A program made the translations under genes and the position numbers. Under the pieces are notes generated by a model, which had not been told where the DNA came from, did no database searches, and was given only the letters and a program-made list of their open reading frames with translations. Positions 12,560-52,700 of a stretch of 64,000 nt of DNA are shown piece by piece. This stretch comes from Zygnema cylindricum (Eukaryota; Streptophyta; Zygnematophyceae; Zygnematales; Zygnemataceae): assembly GCA_037447655.1 (NCBI GenBank), contig JBBHKE010002744.1, positions 186,001 through 250,000 of the forward strand. The letters run 5' to 3'. Numbering within the stretch: the first letter of the stretch is position 1; each line of letters opens with the position of its first letter.

Positions 12560-13603
12560 TGTTACTTTGAGACCTCCATAAGTCCTCAAAGTAGGCAGCT
12601 CACACGAAGCCTCTAGGATAACCCTAACCCCCTTTTGTTTCAGAAAGAATAATTGCCACCTTGGCAAAAAAAAACTCTGACAACCTTCGTCCTTGTGAAG
12701 GCAAGACTCCCTTAAGTCTATAGCAAAAAGAATCTATGAATTTGCTCTCTTGAGCAGTAAGTTATAGAGGGTCAAAGTTGACTTTTTCTACACAAGCTAT
12801 CTGAGAGAGAGGGTCCTATCTACCAAATTTTTCTAAAACCTATCTCTCTCTAAAACTCTATCTACTAAATTACGGCACCAATCAATATACTATGTCGTAT
12901 AGAAAGGTATAGGTGCCGGTGTACTTTCTATATGGCCATGGCACGACATAGCGAACAAGTCGACACATGTCATATTTGGCTTTGTTCCAGCAATCCCCGG
13001 AGATGTCGTGATCCAATGTGGTTGTGCCACGTGTCAATCGATGAGGGGTTGACCGCAAACAGCCAAAAAAACTATTACGCAATCTCGGCATTCTTCACAG
13101 TCGTCTCATCAAAACCAGGATTTTATCGAAGCCGTCATAAATACTTGCACGATATTAGTTTCGCTGTCGAAACAAAATGCGCGGTATCTGTTTTGAGATG
13201 TCCGTACCCTGTAAAATGTAACCTGTATCTATGTCCTAATAAGTCGTTAAATGAAATTGTCTACGTGGAAATATTTATATATCTTTCAAACCCTATATTA
13301 TGTAACCTAGTTCTTAGACAAATACGTTAAGACTACCGACTACCGGCATCTTTGATGGACGGTAGGTAATAGGTTCAAATCGTGGGTCCATCAAGGATCA
13401 TTTTGGTAAATCTACCAACCTACTGTTCGTCTCTCTCTAGATAGCATAGGCAACCATGGCGCTAGCTCCCTCTCCAACTTTCAGTGAATGCCACAAGTGT
13501 GAGAGCTGAAGAGAGGAGTTAGAGGCAGACTGCCAATGCTTTTTTTCTGCATTTTATCTTTTACTAAACCTAAAAAATACTAAAAGAACCTTTAATTTCT
13601 ACA
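12560..13603 (-). repeat. R4 3' LTR
   Basis: 1044 bp; outer edge TGTTACTTTGAG at 12560, inner edge TCTACA at 13603 before the purine tract. It carries leader-hairpin remnants at 12640-12760, a decayed GTAC block (about 12870-12950) and a clear plus-strand tRNA-like module at 13325-13404. Confidence 0.85.
13325..13404 (+). other. tRNA-like module, antisense in the R4 3' LTR
   Basis: Plus-strand order: CGTTAAGACTACCG (D-arm-like), a 9-bp stem TTGATGGAC (13352-13360) with GTCCATCAA (13386-13394) enclosing the B-box-like GGTTCAAATCG (13372-13382), then TTTT (13401-13404). A TATA-like CCTATATTATG lies about 35 bp upstream. The paired LTR (R4 5') changes both strands of the stem together at one pair (T-A to C-G). 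Confidence 0.55.
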
Positions 13604-16600
13604 CTCCTCTCATTTTCTAGTCACTCTTTAATTTTAGACCCCACTTCTCCTTGCAGAAAATTAGTTTAGGGGAAAGCATAGGTTTGGTCTTCATATCTGC
13701 TACCATTTCAATATCTGGTTTATACTCCAAACTGATTATCTTGTTTTCTACTTTCTCCATAACGAAGCTAAGTCTAATGTCCATGTGTTTGGCTTTAAAG
13801 TGATGTTTAGTATTGTCTAAAATGGCAATGTTTGTCTGAGTATCACAAAACACCTTTTGGACACAACTCTTAAGATGACTAAGCTCTCGAAGCAAAGACT
13901 TGACCCAAATTAATTCTTTTACAGCAGAGCAAGAATCCATGTACTCAGCCTCCATGGTGGATTGAGCAATGACCTTTTGGTGCTTGTTGCTCCAGTAGCA
14001 AGCCACATCACCCACATACAATATATATCTAGACGTGCATCTCCTCATAGGAGCATCTCCATAGTTGGTAACACTTGAAGTGGTGATGTCAATATTTTTC
14101 CCACCCAAATGCAGCCATAGATCTCTACTCCTTATGAGATATCTAAGGACTCTCTTAGCTGCCTCCCAATCCTTCTTAGTGGGAGCATTCAGACTCCTAC
14201 TTAGTACTCCTTCAGCTGCGGCTATGTTTGGTCAGGTAGAATTCATGTAATATATTAGGCTGCCCACTACTTGCCTATTAGGAATTGTCTGCATAAATTT
14301 TTTCACTTCAAGGCCTAACTCATCATCCAAGATTATAACTCCCTCTTCCACACTCCCTTTACTTCCTTTCTTTAGTTCTATCAGAGTGGTACAACTATTA
14401 GCCTTGTCCATTTAGAATCTCTCTAACATGTTTCCAATGGCTTTTTTCTGAGTTAACCTTATTATCTTTCTATGTTTGTCTCTCTCTACCTGATTTCCAA
14501 ATTAAACCTTGCTTCTCCCATATAATTCATCTCAAATCTTCCTTTTAGATCATTTTTAACCTTGTTAATTTTATCCATATATTTTCTTAAAACAGGCAAA
14601 TCATCAACATAAATTGCAATATAAATAATTCTTTCCTCATCTTCAAACAAATAAATCGAGTGATCTGAGCTGATCCGAATGTATCCTTAACTTGTAAGAA
14701 ACTCATCGAGCTTCTTATTCCATTGTCGGGGCGCTTGTTTTAGCCTATACAAAGATTTGATCAATCGTCATACCTTTCTCTCCTCCCCTTGCTCCACATA
14801 TCCTCCTGGTTATCACATAAAAGTCTCCTCTTCTAACTCACCATGGTTGTGTTGATGTCCATCTGATGTACTTCCATGTCTTCTGTTGATGCCAGACTGA
14901 GAAGAATCTGGATGGAGGGAAACCTGACGAGTGGGGCTAATGTCTTCTCGTAGTCAATTCCCTCTTTTTAGGTATATCCTTTCGCCACTAACTGGGCCTT
15001 ATAACGCTCAATGGTGTTATTCAGGTTGAGTTTCAACTGAAATACCAACTTACACCCAATCGGCTTCTTGTCAGGAGGACAATCCACTATTTCCCATGTA
15101 TCGGCCGCCATAATTCATGCCATCTCCTCATTAATGACTCTCTTCCACCGGTTTTTCTCATGACAAGTCATTGCCTCATTATAAGTTTGAGGTTCATCGG
15201 GGTGAGACAGTTTGATTACCATATTGTTAACTTGTTTCTCTTGGAGTCTTTTGCTGCCTCTTCTTCCTCCCTCAAACTCGAATGCTGGAATAGATGGCTC
15301 ATTTGGATTCTTCAGAACAGTTTATACTTCTTCCCTATCCCTTGATTCCCGGTCGATTTCCACCACGTCTTCCTCTTCGGTTGGAGTTGCTACTAGGGGT
15401 TCCACATTTGGGTCTTTCTTGATTTGATTTGTACCTACAACATCATCTTCTTGAAATCCTGGATAGTAAAGAAGCTCAAAGTCATCAGAATTTTTTGAAA
15501 CAAATCTGAATTGACTCTCGTTGTATGTTTAAAAGGATCTATAGATTTCCCTTCATCCATAACCACTAGATTCTTCACTAGGATAATATCCTCTCTTTTG
15601 AGATTAAGACTCTATATCTTTTTATATCTTCAGCATATCCTAGTAGATATCCTGGTTTTCCTTTTCGATCTAACTTCTAGTTTGACCGATCTGTGTCTAA
15701 ACTAAACCCTTGACTACCGAAAACCTAATAAGTGTGAAACATCAGGTTTTTGGCTTGTCCATCTCTCATAGTGTGTTTGGCCTATTATTGCCAAAGTAAG
15801 AACTCTATTCTTGAGATAATTTGCACAGTTCATTGCTTCGACCAAAAACTTCTTTCCTATCTTCTTATTTGATAGCATACTCCTAGCACTATCACTCAGT
15901 GTTCTATTTAATCTTTCAGCTACACCATTTTGCTCTGGATTTTCATGAACTGTCTTTAGGTGTTGCACTCCATCTTCTCTCAAAAAATCCTCAAACTAGT
16001 TAGAGGTATACTCTCCACCATTGTCACTCCTTACTCTCTTGATTAGGGTTTCATGGAGTTTTTCACTTTATGCTTTATATTGTCTAAACCATTCTTGAGC
16101 CTTTGACTTTTTTTCTATAAAAAACACGCTAAAATACCGAGACCAATCATCGGTGATAGTTATCATAAGTCTCTTCCCCCCGGGTGATGGCACTCTAGCC
16201 GGTCCCCAAATAGGTGTGTGTACTAAATCTATAATCTTTTCTCCCTTATAAGTGGCAATTTTTGGGAAGGGTAACCTGTGTGCTTTACCTTGAGCATATC
16301 CACTACAATCACTTAAATTCTCACTCTCACCAAACTGAATCCCTTCCACTACTCCTATCTTTTCATCTCTCTTAACTTATCTAGATTCACATGTCCAAGC
16401 CTCTAATGCCACAACATTATATCATGAACACCAACACAATAAAGTTTCTTCTTTTCATTGCTTAATATCAGCCTAAACATCCCTTAGCTACCTTTTTCAG
16501 CAGTGAAATAAACCTCCTTATCAAAAATAGCAGTAAAGACTCCTTTCCTAGTGTTAGTATCAAAATCCTTATCATCTAATACAGATGTAAATATGAGGTT

Positions 16601-16831
16601 TTTGTTCAGCTCCGGAATAAATAATACATTGGAGAATGTAACTATGGATGTCTTTCCTTCAGCTAACACTTTTAGATCTACCGATCTTACAAGAGTAGTA
16701 GTGACTATCCTCCCATCCCCGTGCTCAATCTCTACGGTGTGAATCTTTCTTATCTTAGTGAACAGGTGTTTATCCTTACACATGTGCATGGAGGCACTTG
16801 AATGTACAATCCTGCCTGCTTCACCTTTCAA
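13604..16831 (-). pseudogene. R4 protease-integrase-RT-RNase H (broken)
   Basis: Protease region at 16831-16484 with GRIVHSSASMHMCKD; the catalytic Asp and Gly are replaced (DSG to HSS). Integrase zinc region and core at 16349-15714 (CSGYAQGKAHRLPF, ITDDWSRYF, PEQNGVAERLNRTL). RT lies over about 15180-14560 with many stops. RNase H is at about 14550-13617 (GDAPMRRCTSRY, STMEAEYMDS, LEYKPDIEMVADMKTKP). The purine tract on the plus strand is degraded to CTCCTCTCATTTTC. Coding capacity is lost. Confidence 0.8.
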
Positions 16832-17644: not shown

Positions 17645-17737
17645 TGAAACTCTGAGACCTCCATAAGTCCTCAGAGTGGACAGCTTCCAAGAAGCCTCTA
17701 GGATAATCATGACCCCTTTGTGTTTAAGCAAAAATAA

Positions 17738-17840
17738 CTGCCACCCTGGCAGACAAAAACTCTGACCAACTTCACCCCTGTGAAGATAAGACTCCCCTGA
17801 GTCGATAGCAAAAAGAATCTCTGAATTTGCTCCCCTGAGC
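17738..17840 (-). other. Four-hairpin leader array in S1
   Basis: Plus-strand text: CTGCCA-CCC-TGGCAG (17738-17752), CTTCAC-CCCT-GTGAAG (17770-17785), GACTC-CCCT-GAGTC (17790-17803), GCTC-CCCT-GAGC (17829-17840). In element RNA the loops read AGGG or GGG. All four stems are perfect in this copy. They lie in the last 200 nt of the LTR, so probably in R-U5 of the transcript. Confidence 0.7.
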
Positions 17841-17951
17841 AGTAAGTTATGGAGGGTCAAAATTGACCTTTTGTACAGAAGCTCTCTGGGAGAGGGGGTC
17901 CTATCTTCTAATTTTTCTAAGTCCTATCTCTCTCACAGACTCTATCTACTG

Positions 17952-18030
17952 ATGTACGGAACCAATCAGAATTGAGTTCCGTACGTAAAAGTACAGCTGG
18001 TGGTGTACTTTATGTACGGACATTGTACGA
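17952..18030. promoter_or_regulatory. GTAC cluster in S1
   Basis: Six GTAC tetranucleotides in about 80 bp, several in larger palindromes (TCCGTACG, TGTACGG), beside a CCAATCAG (CCAAT-box) sequence. The same block is present in the other R/P/M LTRs. GTAC is the core bound by plant SBP/SPL factors; binding here is inference. Confidence 0.45.
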
Positions 18031-18414
18031 CATGGCCAAAATGTCGACACATGTCAAATCCGGATTCGGTGCCATAATCTCCGGAGATTCCACAATCCAA
18101 CGAAATTTCGCCACGCGTCAACCGATGTGGCGATGGCCACAAACCGCCGAAATCTTCCTCCGCGATCTCGGCGCTAATCCTGGCCGTCCGATTGAATTCG
18201 GCTTTAATCGTAGCCGTAATAAATACATGCGCGGTATTTGTTTCATTTACGAAACAAATGCGCGGTACTGATTTTTGTCCGTACCCTAAGTCATACATTA
18301 TATATTACTGGATCTATGTATCCCGTAATTCATTGCAGTTAAATGGTTTATCGCACGTATACATATTTAAATAAATATCAAACTATATGCTACGTAACAC
18401 TACCGCTAGATTAA

Positions 18415-18494
18415 ACGGCTAAGGCTACCGGCTACTTCGTGTCTGCCGGCCGGCAGGTACAAGGATCAAATCCTGCCGCCGGCACATATATTTT
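18415..18494 (+). other. tRNA-like module, antisense in S1
   Basis: Plus strand: TTAAACGGCTAAGGCTACCGG, which resembles the D-arm of class II tRNAs; a 13-bp stem TGCCGGCCGGCAGG (18444-18457) with CCTGCCGCCGGCA (18472-18484) around GGATCAAATCC (18463-18473); then TTTT at 18491-18494. An ACTATATG sequence lies about 35 bp upstream. Confidence 0.55.
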
Positions 18495-18698
18495 AATTAA
18501 ATATATAAACCCTAATATAAAATTCCCGTAAACCTCAGGATAGCCAAGGTAGCCATGGCTCTAGCTTCCTCTCCAATTTCTCAGTGACTGCGACAAGTTT
18601 GAGAGTTAGAGAGAGAAGTTAGAGATAGACTGCCTCGACTTCTATATTTCTTTTGAGACCTAGAAAATACTAATAAAACCATTAGTTTATACACACCT

Positions 18699-18936
18699 CC
18701 CCTTCCTTAGTCTCCTCCTTTGGAGATGGATCTGCATCTCTGGTGAATCTGCTTCCTGTAAAACTAGTACAGATCCGAAGACTAGATGGACGCCTCACCC
18801 GTCCACTCAATATTCCCAAAAATCGTTTCTCACATAGAGCTCCTGTCATCATACTTTCCCAGTATATGAATCCAACTCCATTAAATATGGGCACCCTAGA
18901 TGGTTGGCCCATAACCTGCAACTCTGAGACCTCCAT
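18699..18936 (-). pseudogene. R4 gag, N-terminal part
   Basis: About 80 codons starting MEVSELQVMGQPSRVPIFNG at 18936, inside the R4 5' LTR, and ending TKEGE at the S1 target site. Residues 7-10 are encoded by the primer-binding site (element-sense GGTTATGGGCCA, 18905-18916). The rest of gag resumes at 17644. Confidence 0.8.
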
Positions 18937-19956
18937 TGGTCCTCAGAGTAGGCAGCTCATAGGAAGCCTCTAGGAAAACCTTGACCCCTTTGTGTTTCAG
19001 CAAGAATAAATGCCAACCTGGAAGACAAAAACAATAAACACCTTCACCCTTGTGAAGGCAAGACTAACGTGAATCGATAGAAAAAGAATCTCTAAATTTG
19101 CTCCCCTGAGCAGTAAGTTATGAAGGGTCAAAGTTGACCATTTGTACAGAAGCTCTCTTAGAGAGAACCTCCTATCTATTAAATTTTTCTAAGTCTTATC
19201 TCTCTCAAAAACTCTATCTATTGAAGAACGGCACCAATAATAATAATGTGTCGTATAGAAAGGTACAGGTGTCGATGTACTTTCTGTACAGTCGTTGTAC
19301 GACAAAGCCAACAAGTCAACACATGTCATATTTGGATTCATTCCTGCAATCCTCGGAGATGCCGTAATCCAATGTGGTTGTGCCACTTGTCAATCGATGT
19401 GGCACCTATCGCAAAACGCCGAAAAACCTTTTCCGCGATCTCGACATTTTATGCGGCCGTTCGATCAAAACCGGGTTTCAATTAAAGGCGTCATAAACAC
19501 TTACGTGATATTAGTTTCTCTGACGAACAAAATGCGTAGTATCCGTTTCGAGATGTCGGTACCCTGTAAAATACAAACTGTATATATATCCTAATAAGCC
19601 GTTAAATAAAATTGTCTACGTGTAAATATTTATATATCTATCAAACCCTATATTATGTAACCTTGATTTTAGACTAATTCGTTAAGACTATCGGCTACCG
19701 GCTGCTTTGACGCACAGTAAGTACTGGGTTTAAATCGTGGGTCCGTCAAGGATCATTTTGGTAAATCTACCAACCTACTGTGAGTCTCTCTGGATAACAT
19801 AGGCACCCTTGGCTCTAGCTCCCTCTACGCCTTTTAGTGACTGTGACAAGTGTGGGAGGTGAAGAGAGGAGTTAGAGGCTCACAACCTCTACTTCTTTTC
19901 TGCATTTTATCTTTTACAAAAGCTAGTAAATACTAAAGGAACCTTTAATTTCTACA
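18917..19956 (-). repeat. R4 5' LTR
   Basis: 1040 bp, TG at 18917 next to the primer-binding site, TCTACA edge at 19956. Leader hairpins: CCTTCAC-CCTT-GTGAAGG (about 19042-19059) and GCTC-CCCT-GAGC (about 19100-19111). The plus-strand tRNA-like module is at 19680-19759, with stem TTGACGCAC (19707-19715) and GTCCGTCAA (19741-19749), GGTTTAAATCG (19727-19737) and TTTT (19756-19759). Confidence 0.85.
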
Positions 19957-19961
19957 CAGAT

Positions 19962-20163: not shown

Positions 20164-21161
20164 TGAACCAAAAAATTACCAGCTATGTAGAAGCCCTCTA
20201 AGTTAAAATCAGCTTTCCTATTTTGCTTAAAGATAGCACGTAGTCGAACCAAAACAAAGCTGACCAATCTTACCCCTGCGAGGGCTTGACTTCTTTGAGT
20301 CAGACGCAAAAGGAATCTCCAAATTTGCTCAACTGGGAAGTTAATTATTAGAGGCCAAAGTTAGCATTTTGTATACAACCTTGCTAGGAGAGAGGCGGCT
20401 GCCTCATATTTTCCTAATCGCTAAAATCCCACCCTAAACCCCCATATTACTAAAGTAATTATCCAATTAGACGACTGCATGGTAGAGTAAGGTACCGAAG
20501 CCGTGATACCTTTTGTACCGTAGGTGTACGATGTGGGTTAGCCGAAGACGTTTGACGTCATTTAACTTATTCTAAAGTACTCCGTGAATTCCGCAGAGCA
20601 ATGTAAGTCTGCCATATGTCATCTGGTGATGTTATATCCAAAAATCGCCAAAAATGGCCATTTGGTGATGTTGGCCCTCATGGAAGCTGTCTGACGTAGA
20701 CCAACTTTTAATGTCGTCCGTTCAAACAAATGTCTGGTATATTTATTTTGTGCGGGGTATTGTACAATTGGTTCTATATTATGCTAAGTTTTTATAACCA
20801 GTTAAATGGTTTATGGTACACTAACATCTGTAAGTAGTCATCAAACCCTATATAATTCAACGATCTTCTACGACTTACCGTTTAGAGCGGACGGTTGCGC
20901 CGTGTTCTGCCGGTCAAAGGTTCGAGTCCTATCAGACTCACCTTTTTGTCCAATGGTAACTTTGTCACTCTTATTCTCTCTTACCAACTTGCCCTCTCCT
21001 CCATTAGCCATGGCTTGTTCTCTCTCTCTTAATTCTTCAGTGACTATAAAAAGTGTGGGAACCTTAGTGAGTGATTAGGAGTCAGGCGGACTAACTATCT
21101 AATCTCTTTTTGTTTCTATTTCAAGACTTATAAAATACCTCATAAATTTTTAATTTCTACA
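20144..21161 (-). repeat. R3 5' LTR
   Basis: 1018 bp, TG at 20144 and TCTACA edge at 21161. Pairs with the LTR at 7335-8336. The tRNA-like module on the plus strand is at 20850-20947. Confidence 0.85.
20850..20947 (+). other. tRNA-like module, antisense in the R3 5' LTR
   Basis: The best-kept Pol III-like signals of the set. TATATAA near 20850 is followed by CAACGATC, ACTTACCGTTTAGAGCGG (tRNA D-arm-like; compare the tRNA consensus GGTTAGAGCG), a perfect B-box GGTTCGAGTCC (20919-20929) and TTTTT (20943-20947). The A-to-B spacing of about 40 nt is within the tRNA range. The acceptor stem pairs poorly, so it is not a functional tRNA gene. Confidence 0.55.
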
Positions 21162-21166: not shown

Positions 21167-22308
21167 TCTAGATAGTAATGACGGCAAGTTGATAAAAACC
21201 CAAATGACTCACACCCTGACACCTAAAACCCCAAAATATAACTTCTGTGAAACAAGACATTTTGTGTGCTCAATTCACACAAAAACAAAAAGAACGCAAA
21301 GTTAGAATATGAGTATTTGGATACATTCCCCAACTTTGAATTCCTGTATAAATGTCGCCACCCTAATCAACTACACCCTTGTGTAGCGTGGACTCCCTTG
21401 AGACCGCAACAAAAAAAATCATTGAATTTGCTCACTTGAGCAGTTCATTATGGCTCGCCAAAGATGGCCTTTAAATATAAAAGCACCCTAGGAGAGTGGC
21501 GGCTACCTACTATTTTTCTAAGTCCTAAACCTCTCTCTAAACCCTCTACTACGGAAATACAGTACCAATCACAAGACTATACTGTATATAAAAGTACAGG
21601 TGCCTTAGAACTTTCTGTACGGCATTTGTAAGGCATGGCCATAACTGTGACATATGTCATATCAAGACTTGTTACCGTGTATTCCGAAGATTCCGTAAAC
21701 TCGTAAGATTTTGCCACGTTTCATCTAGAGTGGTAGCGTCCAAACAACGCTAACGTGGCCATTCCTGAACCTTGGCTGGAACCATGGCCGTGGATCAAAG
21801 TCGGCTTTTGATACAACCGTCCAAATAAATGTCCGAAAACATTTATTTCATAAGTTATGTAAAACACAGTGGGTTTTACGCATTATGATTCCATTTTATT
21901 AGTTAAATAGAATATTCGGCGTGTACACATTTAAATATCTATCATACCCTATGTATCCTAGTATTGTTCCTAGATTATAGGATAAAGATAACTTTTACCG
22001 GCTATATTGACAGACGGTAGGTACCATGAAAAAATCTTGATGTCGGCAGCCATTTTTGGTATAGACTAAGTATTTAGTTAATTCTCTGTCTCTTTGGACA
22101 GCATAGGCAGCTTTGGTTCTAGCTCTCTATCCGGTCTTCATGGTTTTAGCTCTCTCTGCCCGTTCTTCATGGTTATAACTCTCTCTTCGAATTTTTGTTA
22201 CTACAACAAGTATGGGGACGAGAGAGTGGAGAGAGAAGCCGGCTGCCTTTGCTGACTTCCTCCTTTTATTTTTCCTATTCACACCTAGAAAATACATGAA
22301 TTTCAACA
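21167..22308 (-). repeat. R2 5' LTR, main part
   Basis: Continuation of the LTR split by R3; CAACA edge at 22308. Leader hairpin H3 reads CTACAC-CCTT-GTGTAG (21371-21386), with both arms changed together relative to CTTCAC/GTGAAG in family A. H1 is GCTC-ACTT-GAGC (21430-21441). A degraded tRNA-like module is at 21975-22057 with TTTTT at 22053-22057. The first 180 bp (21167-21350) is A-rich with no recognisable coding. Confidence 0.75.
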
Positions 22309-22387: not shown

Positions 22388-23447
22388 TGAAACTCTGAGA
22401 CCTCCATAAGTCCTCAAAGTGGACAGCTTCCAAGAAGCCTCTAAGATAACCCTGACCCCTTTGTGTTTCAGCAAAAATAACTGCCACCCTGACAGACAAA
22501 AACTATGACCAACTTCACCCCCCCTTGTGAAGACAAGACTCCCCTGACTCGATAGCAAAAAAAAAATCTGAATTTGCTCCCCTGAGCAGTAAGTTATGGA
22601 GGGTCAAAGTTGACCTTTTGTACAGAAGCTCTTTGGGTGAGAGGGTCCTATCTCCTAACTTTTCTAAGTCCTATCTCTCTCAGAGACTCTATCTACTGAT
22701 GTACGGAGCCAATCAGAATGCAGCTTCGTACACAAAAGTACAGCTGCCGGTGTACTTTCTGTACGAACATCGTACGACATGGCCTAAATCTCGACACGTG
22801 GTATGTCCGGATTCGTTCCCGTAATCCTCGGAGATGCCGTGATCCAATGTTATTCCGCCACGTGTCATCCAATGTGGCGATGTTCACAAACCGCCGAAAT
22901 CCTCTTTCGCAATCTCGGGGTTAATTCCGGCTGTCCGATTAAATGCATATTTAATCCTAGCCGTAATAAATACATGTGCGATATTCTTTTCTATACAGAA
23001 ACAAATGTGTGGTTTTGATTTCTTATCCGTACCGCTATCCGTACTTTGACAATTATGGATCTATGTCTCCCGTAATCAGTTATAGTTAAATGAATTTTCC
23101 TACTGAATAACATTTAATTAAATATCATACCCTATAATACGTAACATTCGATGAAGACTTAACGGCTAAGGCTACCATCTACCGGCTGCCTGCCGGCCGG
23201 TAGGTACATGGATCAAATCCTGTAGCCGGCACCATATCTTTTTAGTGAATAAACCCCTAACTAATATATAATCCCGTAAAATTCTGGTTAGCCTACGTAG
23301 CCATGGCTCTAGCTCCCTCTTTCATTTCTCAGCGACTGCGACAAGTTTGAGTGTTAAAGAGAGAAGTTAGAGGTAGACTGCCTCGGCTTCTTTCTATATT
23401 TCTATTTAGACCTAGAAAATACTTTAAATGGATCATTAATTTCTACA
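22388..23447 (-). repeat. S2: solo LTR (family A) inserted in R6
   Basis: 1060-bp LTR with TGAAACTCTG at 22388 and TTCTACA at 23447, flanked by perfect 5-bp duplications GTTCG (22383-22387 and 23448-23452). The R6 RNase H reading continues across the site. It holds CTTCAC-type and GCTC-CCCT-GAGC hairpins (about 22480-22590), a GTAC block (22698-22770) and the module at 23160-23243 (AACGGCTAAGGCT, GGATCAAATCC at 23210-23220, TTTTT at 23239-23243). Confidence 0.9.
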
Positions 23448-23719: not shown

Positions 23720-24338
23720 TGTAGTAATTAGTGGTTTTCTTTTGGTATTTTCCAGGTATAAAGGATGTAAAATAAAAGTCGGAAAATAAGCACATCTAGT
23801 CTGCCTCCAACTCATCTCTCAAGTCCCCACACTAACTCCTCTCTCATGTCCCCACACTTATCGCAATTATTGAAGATTAGAGAGGGAGGTAGAGCCATGG
23901 CTGTCTAGGTTGTGTGAAAGAGGCAAGTAGGAGAAGTTGGTAAAGTTACCAAAAAGATTTCACGGACGCATGATTTTATCCAGGTACTTGCCGTCCGTGA
24001 AAGTAGCCGTTAGCCTTATCCTACAAGCCTAAGATCTGTGTTGAGATAAATAGGGTTCAATATGTATTTAATGATATAAACGTAAACAAATTAATTTAAC
24101 CCCACAAATAGATTCTTACTCCATATATATAGTTTAAGTATAATATGGTTTATGGTACTGCACGAAAAAAACACCGCACTTTTGTTTTGATGAATGAAAT
24201 TAAAAGCCGGTTATGATCAAACGGCCACCATAGAAGCCAAGATCGCCGAATCGGCGTTTTAGCGACTTTCGGTCAAAGCCACGTCAAGTGACACGTGGCA
24301 CCACCTAATTTGCTTATGGCATTTGTGGAGAATATAAT
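23720..24338 (+). repeat. R6 3' LTR (truncated)
   Basis: Starts TGTAGTAATTA after the purine tract and is cut at 24338 by the R5 LTR. On the minus strand it carries a tRNA-like module (23951-24030) with an 11-bp perfect stem, TTTCACGGACG (23958-23968) and CGTCCGTGAAA (23992-24002), and AAAAA (TTTTT in module sense) at 23951-23955. Confidence 0.75.
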
Positions 24339-24840
24339 TGTAATTTTGTGACATCCATTGGTCCATAGAATGTCCTGCTTATATGAAGCCTCTAGGATAA
24401 TATTTGCACTTTTGACTTTGGCGATGAACAATTGCCACTCTGGCACGCAATCACTTTAACCAACGCTCTTCACCAACTATACCCCTATGTAGCTTGGACT
24501 CCCTTGAGTTCGCAGCAAAAAGAATCAATAAAATTGCTCACCTGAGCATTAAGTTATGGCTGGCCGAAGGTGGCCTATAAATACTGATGCACTTTGGGAG
24601 AGAGGCGGCTACCTAAATTTTTCTAAGTCCTAACCCCTCTCTCTCAACCTACTACTAGTGTACCTTAGCCAATCAAAAGACTGTAAGGTATAAGAAGGTA
24701 CAGGTAACGCTGTACTTTTTGTACAACCAAAGTGCGGTATGACCACTCCGCTAACGCGTGTCAGTTCCAAAGCAATAATTGCTCCCTCCGTAATATCCGC
24801 TGTCCAATCTTAGCTTGCCACGTGTCGCCGCCAACATTTG
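24339..24840 (-). repeat. R5 3' LTR, U5-side half
   Basis: Starts TGTAATTTTGTGACATCC. Hairpins: TGCCA-CTC-TGGCA (about 24437-24449), CTATAC-CCCT-ATGTAG (partly paired), GACTC-CCTT-GAGTT and GCTC-ACCT-GAGC. Contains a plus-strand CTATAAATA and a GTAC block near 24660-24730. Broken at 24840 by P1. Confidence 0.8.
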
Positions 24841-25018
24841 TGTAGAAATTAATGGTTTTTTAAGTATTTTCTAGGTTTGGATAGAAATAAAGAAGACGAG
24901 GCAGTCTACCTCTAACATGTCGCAATCACTGAGAAATTGGAGAGGAAGCTAGAGCCATGGCTACCTAGGCTATCCTGAGGTTTACGGGAAATTTATATTA
25001 GTCAAGGGATTAATTACT

Positions 25019-25107
25019 AAAAGGTATGTGCCGGCGATAGGATTTGATCCTGGTACCTGCCGGCCGTCAGAGAATAGATAGCCGGTAGCCTTAGCCGTTA
25101 AGTCTAG
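25019..25107 (-). other. tRNA-like module, antisense in the P1 5' LTR
   Basis: On the minus strand: ACTATATACTATG (TATA-like), CTTAACGGCTAAGGCTACCGG (D-arm-like), GGATCAAATCC (25040-25050) flanked by GCCGGC on both sides, then TTTT (25019-25022). A second copy is in the 3' LTR at 30420-30508. Confidence 0.5.
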
Positions 25108-25671
25108 AGTAGTGTTACATAGTATATAGTACGATAATGATTTAAACATGTACACGTAGGATAAATCATTTAACTATAACTGTTAACGGGATACATAGAT
25201 ATGGTAGTGTAAAAGTACGAATTGTTGTACGGATAAGAAATCAATACCGCGCATTGATTTTGTAAGCGAAACAAATACCGCGCATGTTTTTATTACGGCT
25301 ACGATCAAATGGGAGTTTAATCGGACGGCCGGAATTAGCGCCGAGATCGCGGAAGAAGAATTCGGCGGTTTGTGGGCATCGCCACATCGGATGACACGTG
25401 GCGATGTTACATTGGAGCGCGGCATCTCCGAGGATTAAAGGAGCGAATCCGGATATTCCACGTGTGGACATTTAGGCCATGTCGTACAATGTCCGTACAT
25501 AAAGTACACCGGCATTTGTACTTTTGCGTACGGAATTGTATTCTGATTGGTTCCGTACATCAGTAGATAGAGTCTGTGAGAGAGATAGGACTTCGAAAAA
25601 TTAGAAGATAGGACCCTCTCTCCCAGAGAGCTTCTGTACAAAAGGTCAACTTTGACCCTCCATAACTTACT

Positions 25672-25774
25672 GCTCAGGGGAGCAAATTCAGAGATTCTTT
25701 TTGCTATCGACTCAGGGGAGTTTTGCCTTCACAGAGGCGAAGGTGGTCAGAGTATTTGTCTGCCAGGGTGGCAG
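25672..25774 (+). other. Four-hairpin leader array in the P1 5' LTR
   Basis: H1 GCTC-AGGG-GAGC (25672-25683), H2 GACTC-AGGG-GAGTT (25709-25722), H3 CCTTC with GAAGG around a mutated loop (about 25727-25743), H4 CTGCCA-GGG-TGGCAG (25760-25774). In the 3' LTR copy, H1 to H3 are perfect (31074-31085, 31111-31124, CCTTCAC-AGGG-GTGAAGG at 31128-31145) and H4 has one mismatch. Confidence 0.65.
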
Positions 25775-25847
25775 TTTTTTTTGCTTAAACACAAAGGGGT
25801 CATGATTATCCTAGAGGCTTCTTGGAAGCTGTCCACTCTGAGGACTT

Positions 25848-26710
25848 ATGGAGGTCTCAGAGTTTCACGTTATGGGCCCACCCTCTAAGGTACCAATCTT
25901 TAATGGAACTGGCTTCATATACTCGGAAAGTATGATGATAGGAGCTCTATGCGAAAAAAGGTTTTGGGGGATAGTGAGTGGACGATTGGGGCGTCCATCA
26001 AGTCTTGGAATTCCTCTAGGGTTTAAAGGAAGCAGATTCACCAAGAAAGAGGATTCACCTTCAACGGAGGAAACAAAGGAAGGAGAGGTGGTGGACAAAG
26101 GAAAGGAGAAGGAGGCGACCACACCAATAGCAACTGGTTTAGCATTCATGTCACCTATTCCGAGGAACGAGGAGAATGATACTGAAACCTGGGACTTCAT
26201 TAATATGGCGGCAAAGCACTTCATCCTTCGCCATCTCACTCAAGGACTTGCATGTCCTCATTTGCCGGTAGAAAGGGCAACCGATCTTTTGATGGCTCTC
26301 ATAGAGATGTACCGAAGTGGTACGATTCAGCAACAACAGTTGGCTGATAAGAAAGTTAAGGAGTATGTATACAAAGGGGGAAATATGTTGGATTTTTGCA
26401 ATGAGCTTGCTACACTCTTCATGGAGCTAGAGAGTGCGGGAAAAGTTTTTAGTGAAAAAGAAAAGGTTAACTGCTTACTAATGAAGTTACCTGATGAGTT
26501 CGAGAACATAGTCAACCGTGTGCAAGACTTGCCGGACTGAAGGTGGATATGGAACTCAGTGGTAGGGATGATTCTCGTTCGAGAGAATACGATTGAGATC
26601 CGAAGGGGAGGAAAGAGTGGCCAAGCCTTGGCAACAGCGACCAATTGGAAGAACAAGGATTCCCGGAAACCAGTTGGAAACTATGGGGGTAGGGAGCAGT
26701 AAAAAACAGG
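25848..26710 (+). pseudogene. P1 gag (start in LTR, one stop, one frameshift)
   Basis: Capsid-like copia Gag. The first Met (25848) lies inside the LTR, and the sequence MEVSEFHVMGPPSKVPIFNG reads through the primer-binding site. The UBN2-like body spans residues about 100-230 (NMAAKHFILRHLTQGL, MLDFCNELATLFMELESAGK, KLPDEFENIVNRVQDLPD). A TGA at 26541 stops it where relatives read on. The same frame then continues (WIWNSVVGMILVRENTIEIR) to about 26690, where a frameshift moves the zinc-knuckle segment to another frame. Confidence 0.85.
25869..25881 (+). other. P1 primer-binding site (half-tRNA type)
   Basis: GTTATGGGCCCA starts one base after the LTR end. It is complementary to the anticodon arm of eukaryotic initiator tRNA-Met (GGGCCCAUAAC), the priming mode known for Drosophila copia, not to a tRNA 3' end. 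The same site follows the 5' LTRs of R2, R4, M1 and C1. Confidence 0.7.
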
Positions 26711-31269: not shown

Positions 31270-31274
31270 ATTTG

Positions 31275-37895: not shown

Positions 37896-37907
37896 TGGTA
37901 TCAAAGC
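37896..37907 (+). other. O1 primer-binding site (tRNA-Met 3'-end type)
   Basis: TGGTATCAAAGC, two bases after the LTR end, matches the usual plant copia site complementary to the 3' end of initiator tRNA-Met (TGGTATCAGAGC) with one difference. Confidence 0.9.
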
Positions 37908-38770: not shown

Positions 38771-38793
38771 AGTTCACAGTCAACTTTATCAAA

Positions 38794-39444
38794 ATGTCAC
38801 AGGGAACTCCATCGGCTTCTTCAAGTGAAGGAGGAGGAGTTCTCAACTCCACCACTCTCGAAACCCCGGATATTAATTTTACTGGTGGTAAAAGAGGTGG
38901 CCCGAGAGGTGGTGGTGGCGGCCGAGGCAACAAGAAGGATCAAGGTCGTCCATTGAAGGTCCATTCGAATCATTCCAATGTGAAATGCTACCGGTGTAAT
39001 CGGCTTGGACAGTTGTCTTCCTCTTGTCCGAATAAGGACAAGCAATGCCATTATTGTGGAAAGTGGGGGCACACGAGCCCTCAATGTTATGCAAAAAATG
39101 GAGATTCTGGAGGTGGAAGAGGAGGTAGAGGAGGTGATAGAGGCGGCCAAGGTGGCGGCCGAAGAGGAGGCCGCGGCAAAGGCCATGGTTATGATAATAC
39201 AAATTACTTTGACTATGGTAATGAAACCGGTGATGAGTTTCCGGTTTTTAACCTTACCCTTGACTCGGTAAGTAGTGGAGGAAATTCGGAGAAAGGGTGG
39301 ATTATTCATACGGGGGCATCTCACCATGTTTGCACGGATGCCACATTGTTCGATGATATGAGGGAACTTACGATTTCGAAGTTTATTACGGTGGCAAACG
39401 GCAATGTCATCTCGGTTGGTACAGTTCGGCTTGATCTCCTTTGA
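38794..39444 (+). pseudogene. O1 gag C-terminus (two zinc knuckles) and protease start
   Basis: Frame of about 216 codons. A Gly/Arg-rich stretch, then two CCHC knuckles, CYRCNRLGQLSSSC (His position Gln) and CHYCGKWGHTSPQC (intact), a second GGRGG-rich linker, then GWIIHTGASHHVCTD, the protease motif with DTG changed to HTG. Unlike the R/P/M families it has two knuckles and an RGG-type linker. Confidence 0.85.
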
Positions 39445-42590: not shown

Positions 42591-42591
42591 G

Positions 42592-45785: not shown

Positions 45786-45791
45786 AGTCTG

Positions 45792-46629: not shown

Positions 46630-46634
46630 AATTG

Positions 46635-47523
46635 TGAAATTATGTGGTCTCCATTGACCCACAGAATGAGCAGCCTATGTAAAGCCTCTAGGATAATATT
46701 TGCCCCTTCCACTTTCCCACTGAATAAGTGCCGCCCAGGCCCAAAAGTATTCTGACCACTCTCACCCTTGTGAGGACAAGACTCCCCTGAGTCAAACGCA
46801 AAAAGAATCACTGAATTTGCTCCCCTGGGCAGTAAGTTATGGCTGGTCAAAGATGACCTTTATAGTTACAAGCTCTCTTAGAGAGAGAGGTACCTAAATA
46901 TTACTAAGTCTTGGTCTTCCTTCTCACGACTACCTACTACTAAACCCTAGTCCAATATGAACACTATATAGTACAAGAAGGTAAAATAGGCGATGTACTT
47001 ATTGTACCACCATTGTACGAAAAGGTTTACAAGGTGACACCTGTCAAATCGGAAGCCATGGTTCCTCCTCCCATCTTCTCCGGTATCAAATAATGTGGCG
47101 CCACGTGGCACCGCGTGACGCTACCTCCGTATGCCGCCAAAATATCACTTCGCGTGGCGGCTATAATGTCGGCCGTCCCATCAAATCATGTTTTACACGG
47201 TTCAGATTCGCGTACATGCAGGAATTGCTCCTTTTGGTTAGTGTGTTGTTAATTAGCTGTTGCGTTAATGTTTATATATTCATGAAACTTGTCACGTGTA
47301 TTGTTTCGCAACGCCTTATTGGTTAAGGCGTTTAGCTATAGAGAATCTAGAGGTCGTAGGTTCAAATCTAGACTTAGGCATCGTTTTAGCAAAATATTCT
47401 TTACTTCAAAAACTGCCACTTTCTAAATATGGCGGCAGGCATGGTGCGCCTTTGATCCTCACTCTCTTTCTTTAAAGCAAAACTAAAATAGAGAAGTTAA
47501 CTATTAATTACCTCTTTTCAACA
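46635..47523 (-). repeat. M1 3' LTR
   Basis: TGAAATTATG to TTCAACA. Leader hairpins partly kept: CTCAC-CCTT-GTGAG, GACTC-CCCT-GAGTC, and H1 mutated to GCTC-CCCT-GGGC. tRNA-like module at 47305-47387. Confidence 0.95.
47305..47387 (+). other. tRNA-like module, antisense in the M1 3' LTR
   Basis: Plus strand: CGCC-TTATTGGTTAA-GGCG (47312-47330) folds as a D-arm with a GG in the loop; GGTTCAAATCT (47359-47369) is B-box-like and sits inside a TCTAGA/TCTAGA stem; TTTT follows at 47384-47387. TTATATATTC lies about 40 bp upstream. Confidence 0.6.
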
Positions 47524-48470
47524 CTCCCCTTAATTCTTAGTCACTTTTAAATTTTAATCCATAGTTTTCTCTACAATAAATCAACTTAGGGGAAGGCACT
47601 GGTTTTGTCATCATGTCTGCAATCATTTCTCTATCAGTTTTATGAACCATTTTAATAATTTTATTTTCAACCTTCTCTCTGACAAAGCTTAGTCTTATAT
47701 CCATATGCTTAGCTTTGAAGTGATGTTTCGGATTAGCTGCAATAGAGATAGCAGCTTGATTATCACAAAAAACATTTTGAGTTCCAGACTTTATGAACCC
47801 AAGTTCTTCAAGAAGAGATTTAACCCACATTAATTCTTTGGTGGCAGCACAGGAAGCCATGTATTCAGCCTCCATAGTGGACTGAACAACTACTTTTTGT
47901 TGCTTGCTACTCTAACAACATGCACCGGATCCAATTTGCAACACATATCCAGTCGTACACCGCCTTAAAGCAACATCTCCATAATTGGCATCACTCCAGG
48001 TGGTGATGTCAGTGTGCTCCCCTCCGAAATGCAACCACAATTCCCTTGTCCCCACCAGATATCTCATCACCCTTTTGGCAGCCTCCTAGTCTCTCTTTCT
48101 TGGTTCATTTAGACTTCTACTAAGGACACCTAGAGCTGTAGCTATATCTGGACGGGTACAGTTCATAAAATAAATTAAACTGCCTACAATCTGCCGATAA
48201 GGAATATTTTCCATAAATTCTCTTTCTATCTCATCCATCTTATCATTAATGATCAATATTCCTCTCTCTTCACTCCCCTCAAACACTTTTTTCAAATCCA
48301 AAAGAGTAGTACATCCGTTTGCCTTTTCCATTTGAAATTTTTCTAGCATATTACCGATTCTTTCTTTTTGAGTGAGTCTTATAATTCTATTCCCTCTATC
48401 TCTCTCCATCTAAATTCCCAAAATGTACTTTGCTTCGCCGAGATCTTTCATATCAAAACTGCTTCTAAGA
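47524..48470 (-). pseudogene. M1 RNase H and RT C-terminus
   Basis: RT end MERDRGNRIIRLTQKERIGN (48409) through YFMNCTRPDIATALGVLSRS, then RNase H broken by a stop near 48086 and others, with MEAEYMASCAATKELMWVKS (47875), FCDNQAAISIAANPKHHF and the tail YGLKFKSD (47537). The plus-strand text CTCCCCTTAATTCTT just inside the LTR edge at 47523 is the purine tract. Confidence 0.85.
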
Positions 48471-49828
48471 TCCCGTTTTAGTTTGTTAATTTTATCTAAG
48501 GACTTACTTAAGACCTACAAATCATCCACATAAATAGCAATAAATATCACTCCATTCTCATCCTCAAAGAAATATATAGAATGATCTGAACTAATTCTGA
48601 TATACCCCAAACAGGTCAGAAATTCGTCTAGCTTTATATTCCACTGTCGCAGGGCTTGCTTAAGCCCATAAAGTGATTTTATCAATTTGCAAACTTTATT
48701 TTCTGCCCCACTTTCCACGAATCCTTCCGGTTGCCTCATGTAAATTTCTTCTTCCGACTCTCTGTGCAAAAAGGTCGTTTTAATATCCATCTGGTGGATT
48801 TCCATATCCTCTGCTGCGGCTATACTTAAAAGGATTTTAACAGAAAGAAATCTGACTACAGGTGCAAAGGTTTCTTCGTAGTCTATCCCCTCTTTCTGAG
48901 TATAACAATTTGCAACCAACCTAGCTTTGTACCTGTCAATGGTAATATCGGGGTTTAATTTAAGTTTAAAAATCCACTTACATCCGATCGGTTTTCGGTC
49001 CGGTGGACAATCTACCAACTCCCATGTATTGGCTTCCATGATAGAGGCCATTTCTTCATTTATAGCTGTGATCCACCAGCTACTTTCTGGGGTGTTTATG
49101 GCCTCTAAATATGTCTGAGGTTCAATCGGGTGAGACATCTTTGTGAGTTGGTTATTAACTTGTCTTTTTTGAAGTCGTTTACTACTTCTTCTTCCCCCTT
49201 CAAAATCGGAAGCCGGTATAGAAGGCATCCTTGGGTTTCGTTTAGGAAGATTTTCAGCTCCCCTCTCTTCCAATTCCAGTGTCTCATCAAGTTCCTCTTC
49301 GGTTTCCACTTCGTATTGTGGCGTTGCCTCGGATGTTGTCCTTTCCTCCTTCTCCTTTGGTAAATCTGCAGATTTTTCTTTTTCTCCCTCTTCCTTCTCA
49401 TCATTTTCAAAGTCAAAGTCAAAAAAATGATCAGTTTCAAATCTGATTTTGACTTCCTTATTATATTTGAATGGATCAATGGACTTCACTTCATTCATCA
49501 CCACTATGTGTTTTACCAAAATTATATCTCTCTTTTTCAAGTCATACACCCGGTATCCTTTTGTGCTCTCATCATATCCTACAAGATATCCTGGTTTCCC
49601 TCTTCCCTCCAACTTCCATTTAGTCTTATCGAAATCCAAACTATAAACTTGACTTCCGAACACTCTCAAACTAGACAAATCAGGCTTTCTTCCTGTCCAC
49701 CTCTCATACGGAGTTTCCTCCTTATTTGTTGAAGTTAGGACTCTATTTTTGATGAAATTAGCATAGTTCATAGACTCAGCCCAAAACTGCAGCCCTATCC
49801 TATTGTCACTTAACATACTTCTGGACAT
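48471..49828 (-). pseudogene. M1 integrase tail and reverse transcriptase
   Basis: A 437-codon open frame, the longest in the window. Integrase end (MNYANFIKNRVLTS, PYERWTGRKPDLSSLRVFG, GYLVGYDESTKGYR), acidic Glu-rich linker, then RT with [84 protein letters not shown] and IFIAIYVDDL, where the frame ends. Its upstream start is only the first Met after a break, not the true N-terminus. Confidence 0.88.
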
Positions 49829-50338
49829 ATCTCCTAAAGTTCTATTGACTCTTTCTACTACTCCATTTTGTTTCGGATTATAGGGAACATTTTTCTCATG
49901 ATGAATTCCTTCTTCTTTAAGATATTCTTCAAATTCCCTTGAGGTGTATTCTTTCCCATTATCACTTCTTATCTCTTTTATTGAGGTTTCATGTAGCTTT
50001 TCGCTCCATACTTTATACTATATGAAACATCTTAATACCTCTGACTTATGTCTTAGAAAGTATACCTTCGTGTATCTAGACCAATCATCTGTGATAGCTA
50101 ACATCCATCACTTCCCCCCATTAGAAGCATACCTAGCAGGTCCCCAAACATCAATGTGAACTAGATCTAATACTTTCTCTCTCCTAAATGTGGTTGCCTT
50201 TGGAAATGGAAGTCTATGAATCTTCCCTTGGGCACATCCACTAAAATCATCAAATGTCTCATCATCTTCAAACGTAATACCCTCCACTATTCCCTTTTTC
50301 TTCATTTTCTTTAATCTATCTTGATGCACATGCCCCAA
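49829..50338 (-). pseudogene. M1 integrase zinc region and core
   Basis: GHVHQDRLKKMKKKGIVEG (50338), CAQGKIHRLPFPKAT (about 50235), HIDVWGPARYASNGGK (about 50130), then broken frames with TDDWSRYTKVYFL (about 50070) and SDNGKEYTSREFEEYL (about 49960), PKQNGVVERVNRTLGD (about 49870). The catalytic residues are recognisable but frames are shifted between 50108 and 49828. Confidence 0.8.
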
Positions 50339-51368
50339 CCTTTTTATGCCAAAGCATCATCTCACTTGCACACGAGTAGAGAACACTCTTTTCATTGCAA
50401 ATAACAATTTTGAACATTCCTTGATTGCCGTTCTCAGCTATGAAATAAACCTCATTATCAACGCTTGCTGTGAAGATTCCTTTCCTAGTTCCTGTTTCAA
50501 AATCCTTTTCATCTAGGACAGCTATTGAGACTAGGTTCTTGCTAAGCTCTGGAATGTAAAGAACGTCTGAGAGTGTTACAATTGAGGCCTTTCCATCAAC
50601 TAGAACCTTCAATTCAACAGTTCCAACAAGACTTTTGGTTTCTACTCTACCATCTCCGTACTCTATCTTAACTGTTGGGATCTTTCTCAGTTTAGTGAAC
50701 CACCGCTTATCTTTGCACAAATGCATTGAAGCCCCTGAGTCTATGATCCACCCATCCTCGGGTGGATCCCTCTTTCCTTTGAAAGCACAATTTTGTCTCC
50801 GTGGAATGTCGACATGCTTTTCACTGTTTTTCAGATTAAAAAGAAGCTCCTCAAGCTCCTCTTCTGGTTTAGTTTTTTCTTCCACTTCCTCATCAAGAAC
50901 TTGAGTCAGGAAAGCTTTTTTCTTTCCTCCGTCCTTTGAGGTTCCTTGACCATCTTTTAGTCAAAGATCTGCAAGTCTGACACAATCTGCCATATAGTGT
51001 CCCGGTTTCTTGCAGAAGTGACATAATCCTCCTCGAGAAGTTCCTCTCCCCTGTCTATAAAATCTGCCACCTCCTTGTCCTCTTCCACCTAAGTTTCGAT
51101 AAGGATCTTTCCCTCTCTCCTCATCACGCTTCCGCCAATCAGCTCTACAATGCTTGAACACTTGGACTCCCTCTCCTAGGCTCTATGGTGCTTTCTTTCA
51201 CTAAAATCATTCCCACTGTGTCATCCCAATTCCAATTGCTATCACCTATGTCCTGCAATCAGTTAATGATATTCTCATACTCTTCAGGTAGTTTCATCAT
51301 TAATGTGTTCACTCTTTGTCTCTCACACCATGAGTTACCAGCACTCTCTAACTCTCCAAATAATGCTC
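50316..51368 (-). pseudogene. M1 gag C-terminus, zinc knuckle and protease
   Basis: Gag end with SPEEYENIINxxQDIG-like text (about 51290-51240, frames broken), RGGLCHFCKKPGHYMADC (51020-50975, a fully intact CCHC knuckle), then the 189-codon frame 50885-50316 with DGWIIDSGASMHLCKD (protease, DSG intact), VLYIPELSKNLVSIAVL and MLWHKK, the start of the integrase zinc region. Confidence 0.87.
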
Positions 51369-51968
51369 CTAATCATTGCAATAATTATTCATACTTCCTC
51401 CTTTATAAGTATAAGCTGCAATCTTATTTTCCGCCAACTGTTGTTGCTGCAATGATCCACTCTTATATTTGTTAACTAGTGATATCCAAATCTGGGATGA
51501 AGATTTGACATGCATAAGGGGAATGGCAATGCCCTTAGCTACACTTTTAAGAATTAAGAGCTTAGCAACCTTGTCTTTGTGGTTCCACTTTTTATACTCT
51601 GATCTTTCGATCTGAACCCTTGTCGTTGTTACTCCTGGTGCTGCTGCTGGTATCGCCTTCAGCAATGGTGTCACTTGAGTTGCAACTCCTCTCTTTTCTA
51701 CTTCCATGACAATCTCCTCTCCTTCCTCATCTTCATCCTCGGTGATGGTGGCAGCTGTTCTACCAACTGTAGAGGCGGAGGTGCCAGAAAAACGTGTCCC
51801 TCCAAACCCAGGTGGAGGTGGGCATCGAATTTGTCCAGACACTATGCCCCATAGATGCTTCTCAAATAGTTCTCCCTCCATCATCATTTCCCAATACAAA
51901 AAGTCTGATCCATCAAATATGGGCACCCTAGAGGGTGGGCCCATAACCTGAAATTCTGTGGTCTCCAT
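51369..51968 (-). pseudogene. M1 gag N-terminal part
   Basis: A 199-codon frame. METTEFQVMGPPSRVPIFDG begins at 51968, inside the 5' LTR, and passes through the primer-binding site (51936-51948). Next come LYWEMMMEGELFEKHLWGIV, a Pro/Gly and acidic spacer, then the UBN2-like body (KVAKLLILKSVAKGIAIP, YKSGSLQQQQLAENKIAAYT). It ends at a stop after NYCND, where relatives continue with ELAxLFxELES. Confidence 0.88.
51936..51948 (-). other. M1 primer-binding site (half-tRNA type)
   Basis: Element sense GGTTATGGGCCCA immediately follows the LTR end CAGAATTTCA. It is a 12-13 nt match to the complement of the initiator tRNA-Met anticodon arm. Confidence 0.72.
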
Positions 51969-52041
51969 TGACCCACAGAATGAGCAGCCTATGTAAAGCC
52001 TCTAGGATAATATTTGCCCCTTCCACTTTCCCACTGAATAA

Positions 52042-52144
52042 GTGCCGCCCAGGCACAAAAATATTCTGACCACCCTCACCCCTGTGAGGACAAGACTCCC
52101 CTGAGTCAAACGCAAAAAGAATCACTGAATTTGCTCCCCTGAGC
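52042..52144 (-). other. Four-hairpin leader array in the M1 5' LTR
   Basis: Plus-strand text: GTGCC-GCCCA-GGCAC (52042-52056), CCTCAC-CCCT-GTGAGG (52074-52089), GACTC-CCCT-GAGTC (52094-52107), GCTC-CCCT-GAGC (52133-52144). Relative to S1/P1 the outer pair of H4 (C-G to G-C) and the second pair of H3 (T-A to C-G) are changed on both arms. Confidence 0.7.
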
Positions 52145-52617
52145 AGTAAGTTATGGCTGGTCAAAGATGACCTTTATAGTTACAAGCTCTCTTAGAGAGA
52201 GGTACCTAAATATTACTAAGTCTTGGTCTGCCTACTCACGACTACCTACTACTAAACCCTAGTCCAGTAGGAACACTATATAGTACAAGAAGGTACAATG
52301 GGCGATGTACTTATTGTACGTCCATTGTACGACAAGGTCTACAAGGTGACACTTGTCAAATCGGAAGCCATGGTTCCTCCTCCCATCTTCTCTTGTATCA
52401 AATAATGTGGCCCCATGAGGCACCGCGTGACGCTATCTCCGTATGCCGCCAAAAGCTCACTTCGCGTGGCGGCTATAATGCTGGCCGTCCGATCAAAACA
52501 TATTTTACACGGTTCAGATTCGCGTACATGCATGAATTGCTCCTTTTGGTTAGTCTGCTGTTAATTAGCTGTTGCGTTAATGTTTATATATCTTTGAAAC
52601 CCATCACGTGTATCGTT

Positions 52618-52700
52618 TCGATAACGCCTTAGTGGTTAAGACGTACGACTATATAGAAGTCCACAGACCCAGGTTCAAATCTGGACTTAGGCAACATTTT
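52618..52700 (+). other. tRNA-like module, antisense in the M1 5' LTR
   Basis: ACGCCTTAGTGGTTAAGACG (close to a tRNA A-box/D-arm), stem AAGTCCA (52657-52663) with TGGACTT (52682-52688), GGTTCAAATCT (52672-52682), TTTT at 52697-52700. The M1 3' LTR copy uses TCTAGA arms at the same place. Confidence 0.6.

Follow-up and report, generated by a model that had tools for sequence, protein, structure and literature searches.

Antisense tRNA-gene-like units, candidate Pol III promoters, in the long terminal repeats of a copia lineage from Zygnema cylindricum

RNA polymerase III (Pol III) units inside long terminal repeats (LTRs) have been described, in passages of the papers concerned, for the tiny non-autonomous elements Cassandra and Helenus and for foamy viruses (Kojima 2024, PMC10886601; PMC7693620; PMC7104284). 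Parts of Kojima 2024 present Helenus as short non-autonomous LTR elements with tRNA-like LTRs, occurring in fungi, animals and one lycophyte; these are terminal-repeat retrotransposons in miniature (TRIMs) of 311–1263 bp, and the only plant case listed there is from Selaginella, with a 120-bp LTR. According to the same parts, boxes A and B are the conserved portions of the tRNA-like stretch, most members are thought by the author to encode no functional tRNA, most fungal members have tRNA anticodon-loop primer sites (the initiator tRNA-Met, iMet, among them), members in plants and fungi make 5-bp target duplications, many Repbase LTRs ('not a few') match part of a tRNA, and autonomous partners of Helenus are argued to need Pol II promoters (PMC10886601). 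The words 'antisense' and 'opposite' are absent from the main text of that paper. Cassandra TRIMs have 5S rRNA sequence in their plant LTRs, and with it the Pol III control region belonging to a host gene for a small RNA, and their Pol III transcripts have been reported (parts of PMC10886601). Foamy viruses, which are animal retroviruses, have demonstrated Pol III-directed hairpin RNAs, microRNAs that are LTR-encoded in the simian case (passages of PMC7693620 and PMC7104284). Here we describe a 64-kb stretch of DNA from the streptophyte Zygnema cylindricum (contig JBBHKE010002744.1, positions 186,001 to 250,000, forward strand; hereafter the window) that contains nested Ty1/copia elements. Our favoured reading, held tentatively and with slightly less than even confidence, is that the unique 3′ (U3) region of this half-tRNA-primed lineage may hold a type 2 (tRNA-gene-like) Pol III promoter unit in antisense orientation.

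The locus compares with these systems as follows. As in Helenus, the LTRs in the window may contain a tRNA-like stretch with boxes A and B as its better kept portions, and they appear to encode no functional tRNA; two full-length copies (elements A and S) are bounded by 5-bp target duplications and, like most fungal Helenus, have a primer site for the anticodon region of a tRNA. Unlike Helenus, they are not short TRIMs devoid of coding domains: gag, integrase and RVT_2 domains of copia type lie inside them, elements A and S each exceed 6 kb, the LTRs are ~0.9–1.05 kb long, and the unit is antisense. The A-box and B-box are both good in three of the modules (S1, S2 and X), and in the other modules it is mostly the B-box alone that is good. 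A comparison with Cassandra, drawn in an earlier sequence-only reading of this DNA, is supported: both would place a Pol III control region in a plant LTR, but the type here would be that of a tRNA gene and the elements are not of the non-autonomous kind; Rfam scans of the window gave no match to 5S rRNA. The Pol III RNAs of foamy viruses are in sense orientation.

Fifteen copies of the unit, all belonging to this one genomic cluster and many of them old and worn, were grouped by eye into families A (five copies), P (two), P3 (one), R (two), M (two), X (one) and S (two), names that differ in part from those of the sequence-only reading. An ordered set comprising an AT-rich stretch, an A-box-like segment, a B-box-like segment and a T-run lies antisense to the element near the start of U3 in all 15 LTR copies. 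The earlier claim that about 15 LTRs carry the same ordered set on the opposite strand was borne out: a profile made from the 15 modules recovered exactly those 15 in the window and no sixteenth below an E-value of 5 (weakest member E 1e-18, next match E 5.2). The order and spacing of the parts and their antisense place near the LTR start were likewise supported. In the seven copies measured, the T-run lies 137–213 nt from the LTR start, and the unit continues for somewhat more than 100 nt. Over the first 420 nt of the LTR, identity between groups is 41–67%, with differences at 33–59% of aligned positions. The modules are listed here by family.

52626–52700 (+): module S2, antisense to the element; tRNA-like cloverleaf 52626–52693, A-box 52633–52643, B-box 52672–52682, T-run 52697–52700
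52657–52663 and 52682–52688 (+): stem arms of module S2
47313–47387 (+): module S1; A-box 47320–47330, B-box 47359–47369, T-run 47384–47387
31494–31585 (+): module X; A-box 31502–31512, B-box 31554–31564, CTTGGCACCA 31569–31578, T-run 31582–31585
13301–13404 (+): module M1; arms 13348–13360 and 13386–13398 (13 pairs, one G–T), B-box 13372–13382, T-run 13401–13404
19656–19759 (+): module M2; B-box-like segment 19727–19737, T-run 19756–19759
5008–5093 (+): module P1; arms 5041–5049 and 5078–5086, B-box 5063–5073, T-run 5089–5093
21959–22057 (+): module P2; degenerate B-box at 22027, T-run 22053–22057
23951–24044 (−): module P3; arms 24002–23992 and 23968–23958 (11 pairs), B-box-like segment 23981–23971, T-run 23955–23951
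691–792 (+): module A1; B-box-like segment 761–771, T-run 789–792
18393–18494 (+): module A2, in a solo LTR nested in element M; arms 18444–18450 and 18478–18484, B-box 18463–18473, T-run 18491–18494
23140–23243 (+): module A3; B-box 23210–23220, T-run 23239–23243
25019–25119 (−): module A4, in the 5′ LTR of element A; B-box 25050–25040, T-run 25022–25019
30420–30521 (−): module A5, in the 3′ LTR of element A; B-box 30451–30441, T-run 30423–30420
8032–8122 (+): module R1, without outer stem; B-box 8094–8104, T-run 8118–8122
20857–20947 (+): module R2, without outer stem; exact B-box GGTTCGAGTCC 20919–20929, T-run 20943–20947

Sites with at most one mismatch to the B-box consensus GGTTCRANTCC number 16 on both strands of the 64 kb, and 11 of them fall inside modules; the sole exact site among the 16 is that of R2, at 20919. 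A B-box-like segment had been reported for every copy, which is correct to within one mismatch for 11 of the 15 modules but not for A1, M2, P2 and P3, where at least two positions differ. A run of at least four T residues begins 13 to 18 nt after the end of the B-box in 15 of 15 modules, as compared with 5.3–5.6% of background positions, in agreement with the T4–T5 run reported 10–30 nt past the B-box; each of the 15 terminators named in advance is a T4 or T5 run in the right place and on the right strand. About eleven bases separate the B-box of a tRNA gene from the end of the tRNA, so the T-run of the modules stands where the stop of a tRNA gene would.

The A-box consensus TRGYNNANNNG, looked for 30–60 nt upstream of the B-box, is matched exactly in three copies (X, S1 and S2), compared with 3.4% of random places, and for these three the A-box-like segment of the earlier description stands. 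When 11-base blocks from the LTR's first 420 nt were ranked by how well they are conserved from family to family and the 12 best were listed, the B-box block came second and the A-box block seventh. Blocks that are AT-rich or telo-box-like, situated upstream of the A-box, take ranks three to five, and the block at rank six is found nearer the beginning of the LTR. A TATA-like AT run had been proposed; AT-rich blocks upstream of the A-box are indeed conserved, but such stretches are common in the window. Conserved blocks upstream of the antisense unit, for example at ~30505–30560 (− strand), include ATAGGGTTTGA, TATTTAAATA and ATTTAAC, and the complement of ATAGGGTTTGA contains AAACCCTA, a telo-box-like sequence. 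Rank one is the palindrome AGCCATGGCT, which lies just beyond the antisense T-run, is exact in seven of the 15 copies (e.g., 24953–24962, + strand, in A4) and is perhaps a site for a dimeric factor.

An unconstrained search for stems flanking the B-box proved too noisy, with cross-family pairs often scoring equally high, and was replaced by a fixed-geometry test, in which the geometry was chosen after viewing the unconstrained search and was identical for own and crossed arms. In this test, seven of the 15 copies (P1, M1, M2, A2, A3, P3 and S2) had a stem score of at least 7, a level reached by 5.5% of cross-family pairs. When family averages were used, the summed score of the true pairing was the best of 5040 re-pairings. 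For M, P, S and P3, the own pairing was the best in the row; the arms of family A scored a little higher with P arms (6.6) than with each other (6.1), R arms paired better with those of other families, and X was beaten by none and tied with M. Thus, five of the seven families have a good stem in one copy or more, and the proposal that the arms pair despite differing between copies is right for some members of A, M, P, P3 and S but fails for R and X, which are without a stem. That the arms 'differ totally' was an overstatement, as those of M and P3 are partly alike, and TTGACGCAC/GTCCGTCAA, given as an example of pairing, contains one C–C mismatch. Wobbles are few in the arms named for 10 of the 15 copies, comprising antisense-strand G–T pairs in P1, M1 and M2 (those of M1 and M2 are shared) and A–C in S1, and they lean weakly to an antisense RNA. 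One common fold for all copies was also tried and rejected, as individual folds differ and neither strand wins. We regard the stem as real but modest evidence for what may be a structured RNA, with a weak leaning to the antisense strand. An internal promoter needs no conserved stem, and a promoter alone therefore cannot explain everything.

No module forms a functional-tRNA cloverleaf above the detection threshold, and S2 came nearest. With the ARAGORN threshold relaxed to 90%, the single candidate in the window was module S2 (average of 0.57 in 60 shuffles); at 80%, three of 25 candidates were modules (S1, S2 and X), and shuffles averaged 23.1. The Rfam tRNA model RF00005 spans S2 from end to end (model positions 1–71) and covers the same bases as the ARAGORN candidate, with 13.6 bits and E 1.9 over all families, the gathering score being 29. 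In comparisons with 18 plant tRNAs, six of the 15 modules (A2, A4, A5, R2, S1 and S2) scored above the 95% level of 400 controls. The nearest tRNA was iMet for A2, A4 (positions 42–62) and A5 (19 of 22 bases at positions 42–63), Asn for S1 (positions 16–57), Ile or Asn in a tie for R2, and iMet, Gly or Glu in a tie for S2. The likeness is thus to tRNAs in general, and a clear link to the primer tRNA is seen in family A alone.

Pfam matches to copia gag, Pol_BBD, integrase parts and RVT_2 occurred at E ≤0.001 in nine of the 10 reading frames given, some of them scoring under Pfam's curated cut-off; copia-type gag, integrase and RVT_2 domains together with the 5-bp duplication place the elements in Ty1/copia. 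In element A, the gag, integrase and RVT_2 matches are spread over separate frames, which may mean a broken copy, and the term 'gene-bearing' applies to the lineage. In element S, RVT_2 and SH3 domains share one frame, which also contains rve at a score under its cut-off. The two full-length elements and the primer binding sites are as follows.

24841–31269 (+): element A, full-length copia; LTRs 24841–25867 and ~30221–31269, 93.9% identical
24836–24840 and 31270–31274: 5-bp target duplication of element A, ATTTG
46635–52836 (−): element S, full-length copia; LTRs ~46635–47523 and 51949–52836, 91.7% identical; 5-bp target duplication CAATT
25868–25882 (+): primer binding site of element A, adjoining the 5′ LTR; GTTATGGGCCCACC, half-tRNA-Met type
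51934–51948 (−): primer binding site of element S; GTTATGGGCCCACC, same half-tRNA-Met type
18902–18916 (−): further half-tRNA-Met primer site

Over 14 bases, GTTATGGGCCCACC complements the anticodon arm of plant initiator tRNA-Met, a primer-site type that is uncommon in plants. The standard search for full tRNA-Met primer sites found none beside these LTRs. A one-mismatch copy of the half-tRNA-Met 15-mer occurs at 43897 (−), and a site of the full-length tRNA-Met type, with one mismatch, occurs at 37896–37907 (+), probably in a different copia element whose frame at 38692–39444 has a weak Pol_BBD match. Within plants, the passages of Neumann et al. (2019; PMC6317226) that bear on this point report half-tRNA-Met sites only for Osser, Bryco and part of Gymco-II copia, which share this 1/2tRNA-Met primer site with the elements here, and those passages mention no tRNA-like unit in the LTRs.

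Parts of the unit look as if selection has kept them. In the reading that we favour, the unit would be derived from or modelled on a tRNA gene, with an AT-rich upstream stretch, an A-box that is good in families S and X and worn in the others, a B-box and a T4–T5 stop. TFIIIC would bind the B-box, and Pol III would start upstream of the A-box and stop at the T-run to give an RNA of ~90–100 nt, the 3′ part of which, in several families, would be a hairpin followed by U residues. We favour the view that the unit is, or recently was, transcribed by Pol III and that the hairpin may matter in several families, with a short hairpin RNA as the probable product. tRNA genes act as chromatin barriers. 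The gain to the element might be that this stretch of U3 is kept accessible for the element's Pol II promoter farther along or, alternatively, the short hairpin RNA itself, and we give less weight to either of these suggestions. The fullest version of the argument seems rather unlikely to us as a whole, namely that a copia lineage with genes of its own has retained over long divergence, in its LTRs, a tRNA-type Pol III gene in reverse orientation, that this gene makes a short antisense hairpin RNA with a compensated stem, and that its promoter also serves to open chromatin for the element's Pol II promoter.

Several results weigh against a Pol III unit. No tRNA was found in the window by ARAGORN at its normal threshold or by Rfam at the gathering score or up to E 5, on which grounds a full tRNA gene was rejected, and the counts of relaxed ARAGORN candidates match the shuffle expectation. 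When the small regions of S2, X and S1 were searched with Rfam, X and S1 gave no tRNA match, and in nine of the 15 modules similarity to the 18 plant tRNAs was not above the control level. The A-box outside X, S1 and S2 has one mismatch in five copies and two in seven, as by chance, so in 12 of 15 copies the A-box-like segment reported earlier is no better than chance. The T-run block lies outside the 12 best conserved blocks, and it is the place of the run that is kept. In P1, an extra T4 immediately after the B-box could stop Pol III early. The stem is weak or lacking (score of 6 or less) in eight of the 15 copies (A1, A4, A5, P2, R1, R2, X and S1), and folding energies pick no strand, the mean z being about −1.3 for antisense and about −1.2 for sense. 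Finally, the best conserved block, AGCCATGGCT, is unexplained by a Pol III unit.

Some of these features would be expected if a tRNA gene or the head of a tRNA-derived short interspersed element (SINE) had fallen antisense into an ancestral LTR and decayed there, so that the likeness reflected descent and had no present function. The worn A-box of 12 copies, tRNA likeness above controls in only six and the lack of a tRNA call at normal thresholds all fit such a remnant, and SINE insertion into an LTR has been proposed as the origin of Helenus (Kojima 2024, PMC10886601). We nevertheless consider it unlikely, as families that differ at 33–59% of positions still keep the place of the T-run in 15 of 15 copies and have the B-box as their second-ranked block, and the stem arms change together, which is compensation not expected of a remnant. 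The B-box, being better kept than the A-box and flanked by AGCCATGGCT and other conserved blocks, could also be a docking site at which TFIIIC or another factor makes U3 a boundary or open site without transcription; the fixed T-run and the compensating stem, however, point to an RNA end and an RNA and not to a binding site alone, and we rate docking as distinctly improbable, just behind the primer contact considered next.

According to parts of PMC5371799, the Ty3 primer site has its 3′ part in U3, where the primer tRNA makes contacts through its T and D arms. By analogy, the U3 of sense genomic RNA might here pair with these two arms and bridge both RNA ends before reverse transcription. The half-tRNA-Met primer and the match of A5 to plant tRNA-iMet suit this idea, as do sense-strand pairing with that tRNA at p 0.005–0.043 in the five A copies and gapped similarity at p <0.05 in seven of the 15 (A1–A5, X and S2), both against controls that did not exclude the modules themselves. 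Whereas an interaction is described for Ty3, only family A here shows a good sense-strand match to the primer tRNA; in none of the other 10 copies does the pairing reach the 5% level of the controls (lowest p 0.075), and families R, S, X and M have elongator-type GGTT and not the GGAT of iMet, even though element S has the same primer site. Moreover, a fixed T-run is not predicted and a half-tRNA primer excludes the 3′ half of the tRNA, leaving this contact quite improbable in our judgement. Very unlikely, finally, is a sense-strand structure of the 3′ U3, such as a stability, export or packaging hairpin with a loop that merely resembles a B-box: the stem covaries and the sense strand folds about equally well, but the B-box consensus and the T-run spacing would then be coincidence, and the wobbles lean antisense (three of four cells, M1 and M2 having two of these in common). 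As the spacing and the stop are unpredicted by the sense-strand explanations and the stem is unpredicted by a bare promoter or a dead remnant, we favour a Pol III unit.

Other features of the window concern its repeats and genes. Element M has LTRs at 12564–13604 and 18921–19957 that are 82.4% identical, and the family-A solo LTR nested in its leader (~17645–18700) has the 5-bp duplication AGGTG. In alignments, the X LTR appears to be split by element A into pieces at ~24336–24835 and 31275–31733. On this reading, element A inserted ~220 bp upstream of the predicted start of the X antisense unit, a single case that raises the idea that Pol III units are targeted in the manner of Ty1 or Ty3. 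When viral contigs were scanned once with the reverse-transcriptase frame, no relatives outside the window were found. Tandem interrupted HSP70/BiP-like gene copies at 58908–61245 and 61451–63807 are 88% identical, and their translations resemble plant BiP, which points to a green plant as the most likely host. A 0.4-kb repeat pair lies at 37246–37693 and 53661–54068 (78% identical).

No antisense tRNA-type unit in an autonomous plant copia element was evident in the titles and abstract openings of a limited body of open literature, and the same material had nothing on Pol III transcripts of murine leukaemia virus LTRs. If full copia elements do carry a conserved antisense unit of this kind, an element driven by Pol II also keeps a Pol III unit. 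This would prompt questions, open to testing, on antisense RNA made by the element itself, on silencing and on chromatin boundaries, and such units could also give rise to false calls of tRNAs and SINEs in plant genomes.

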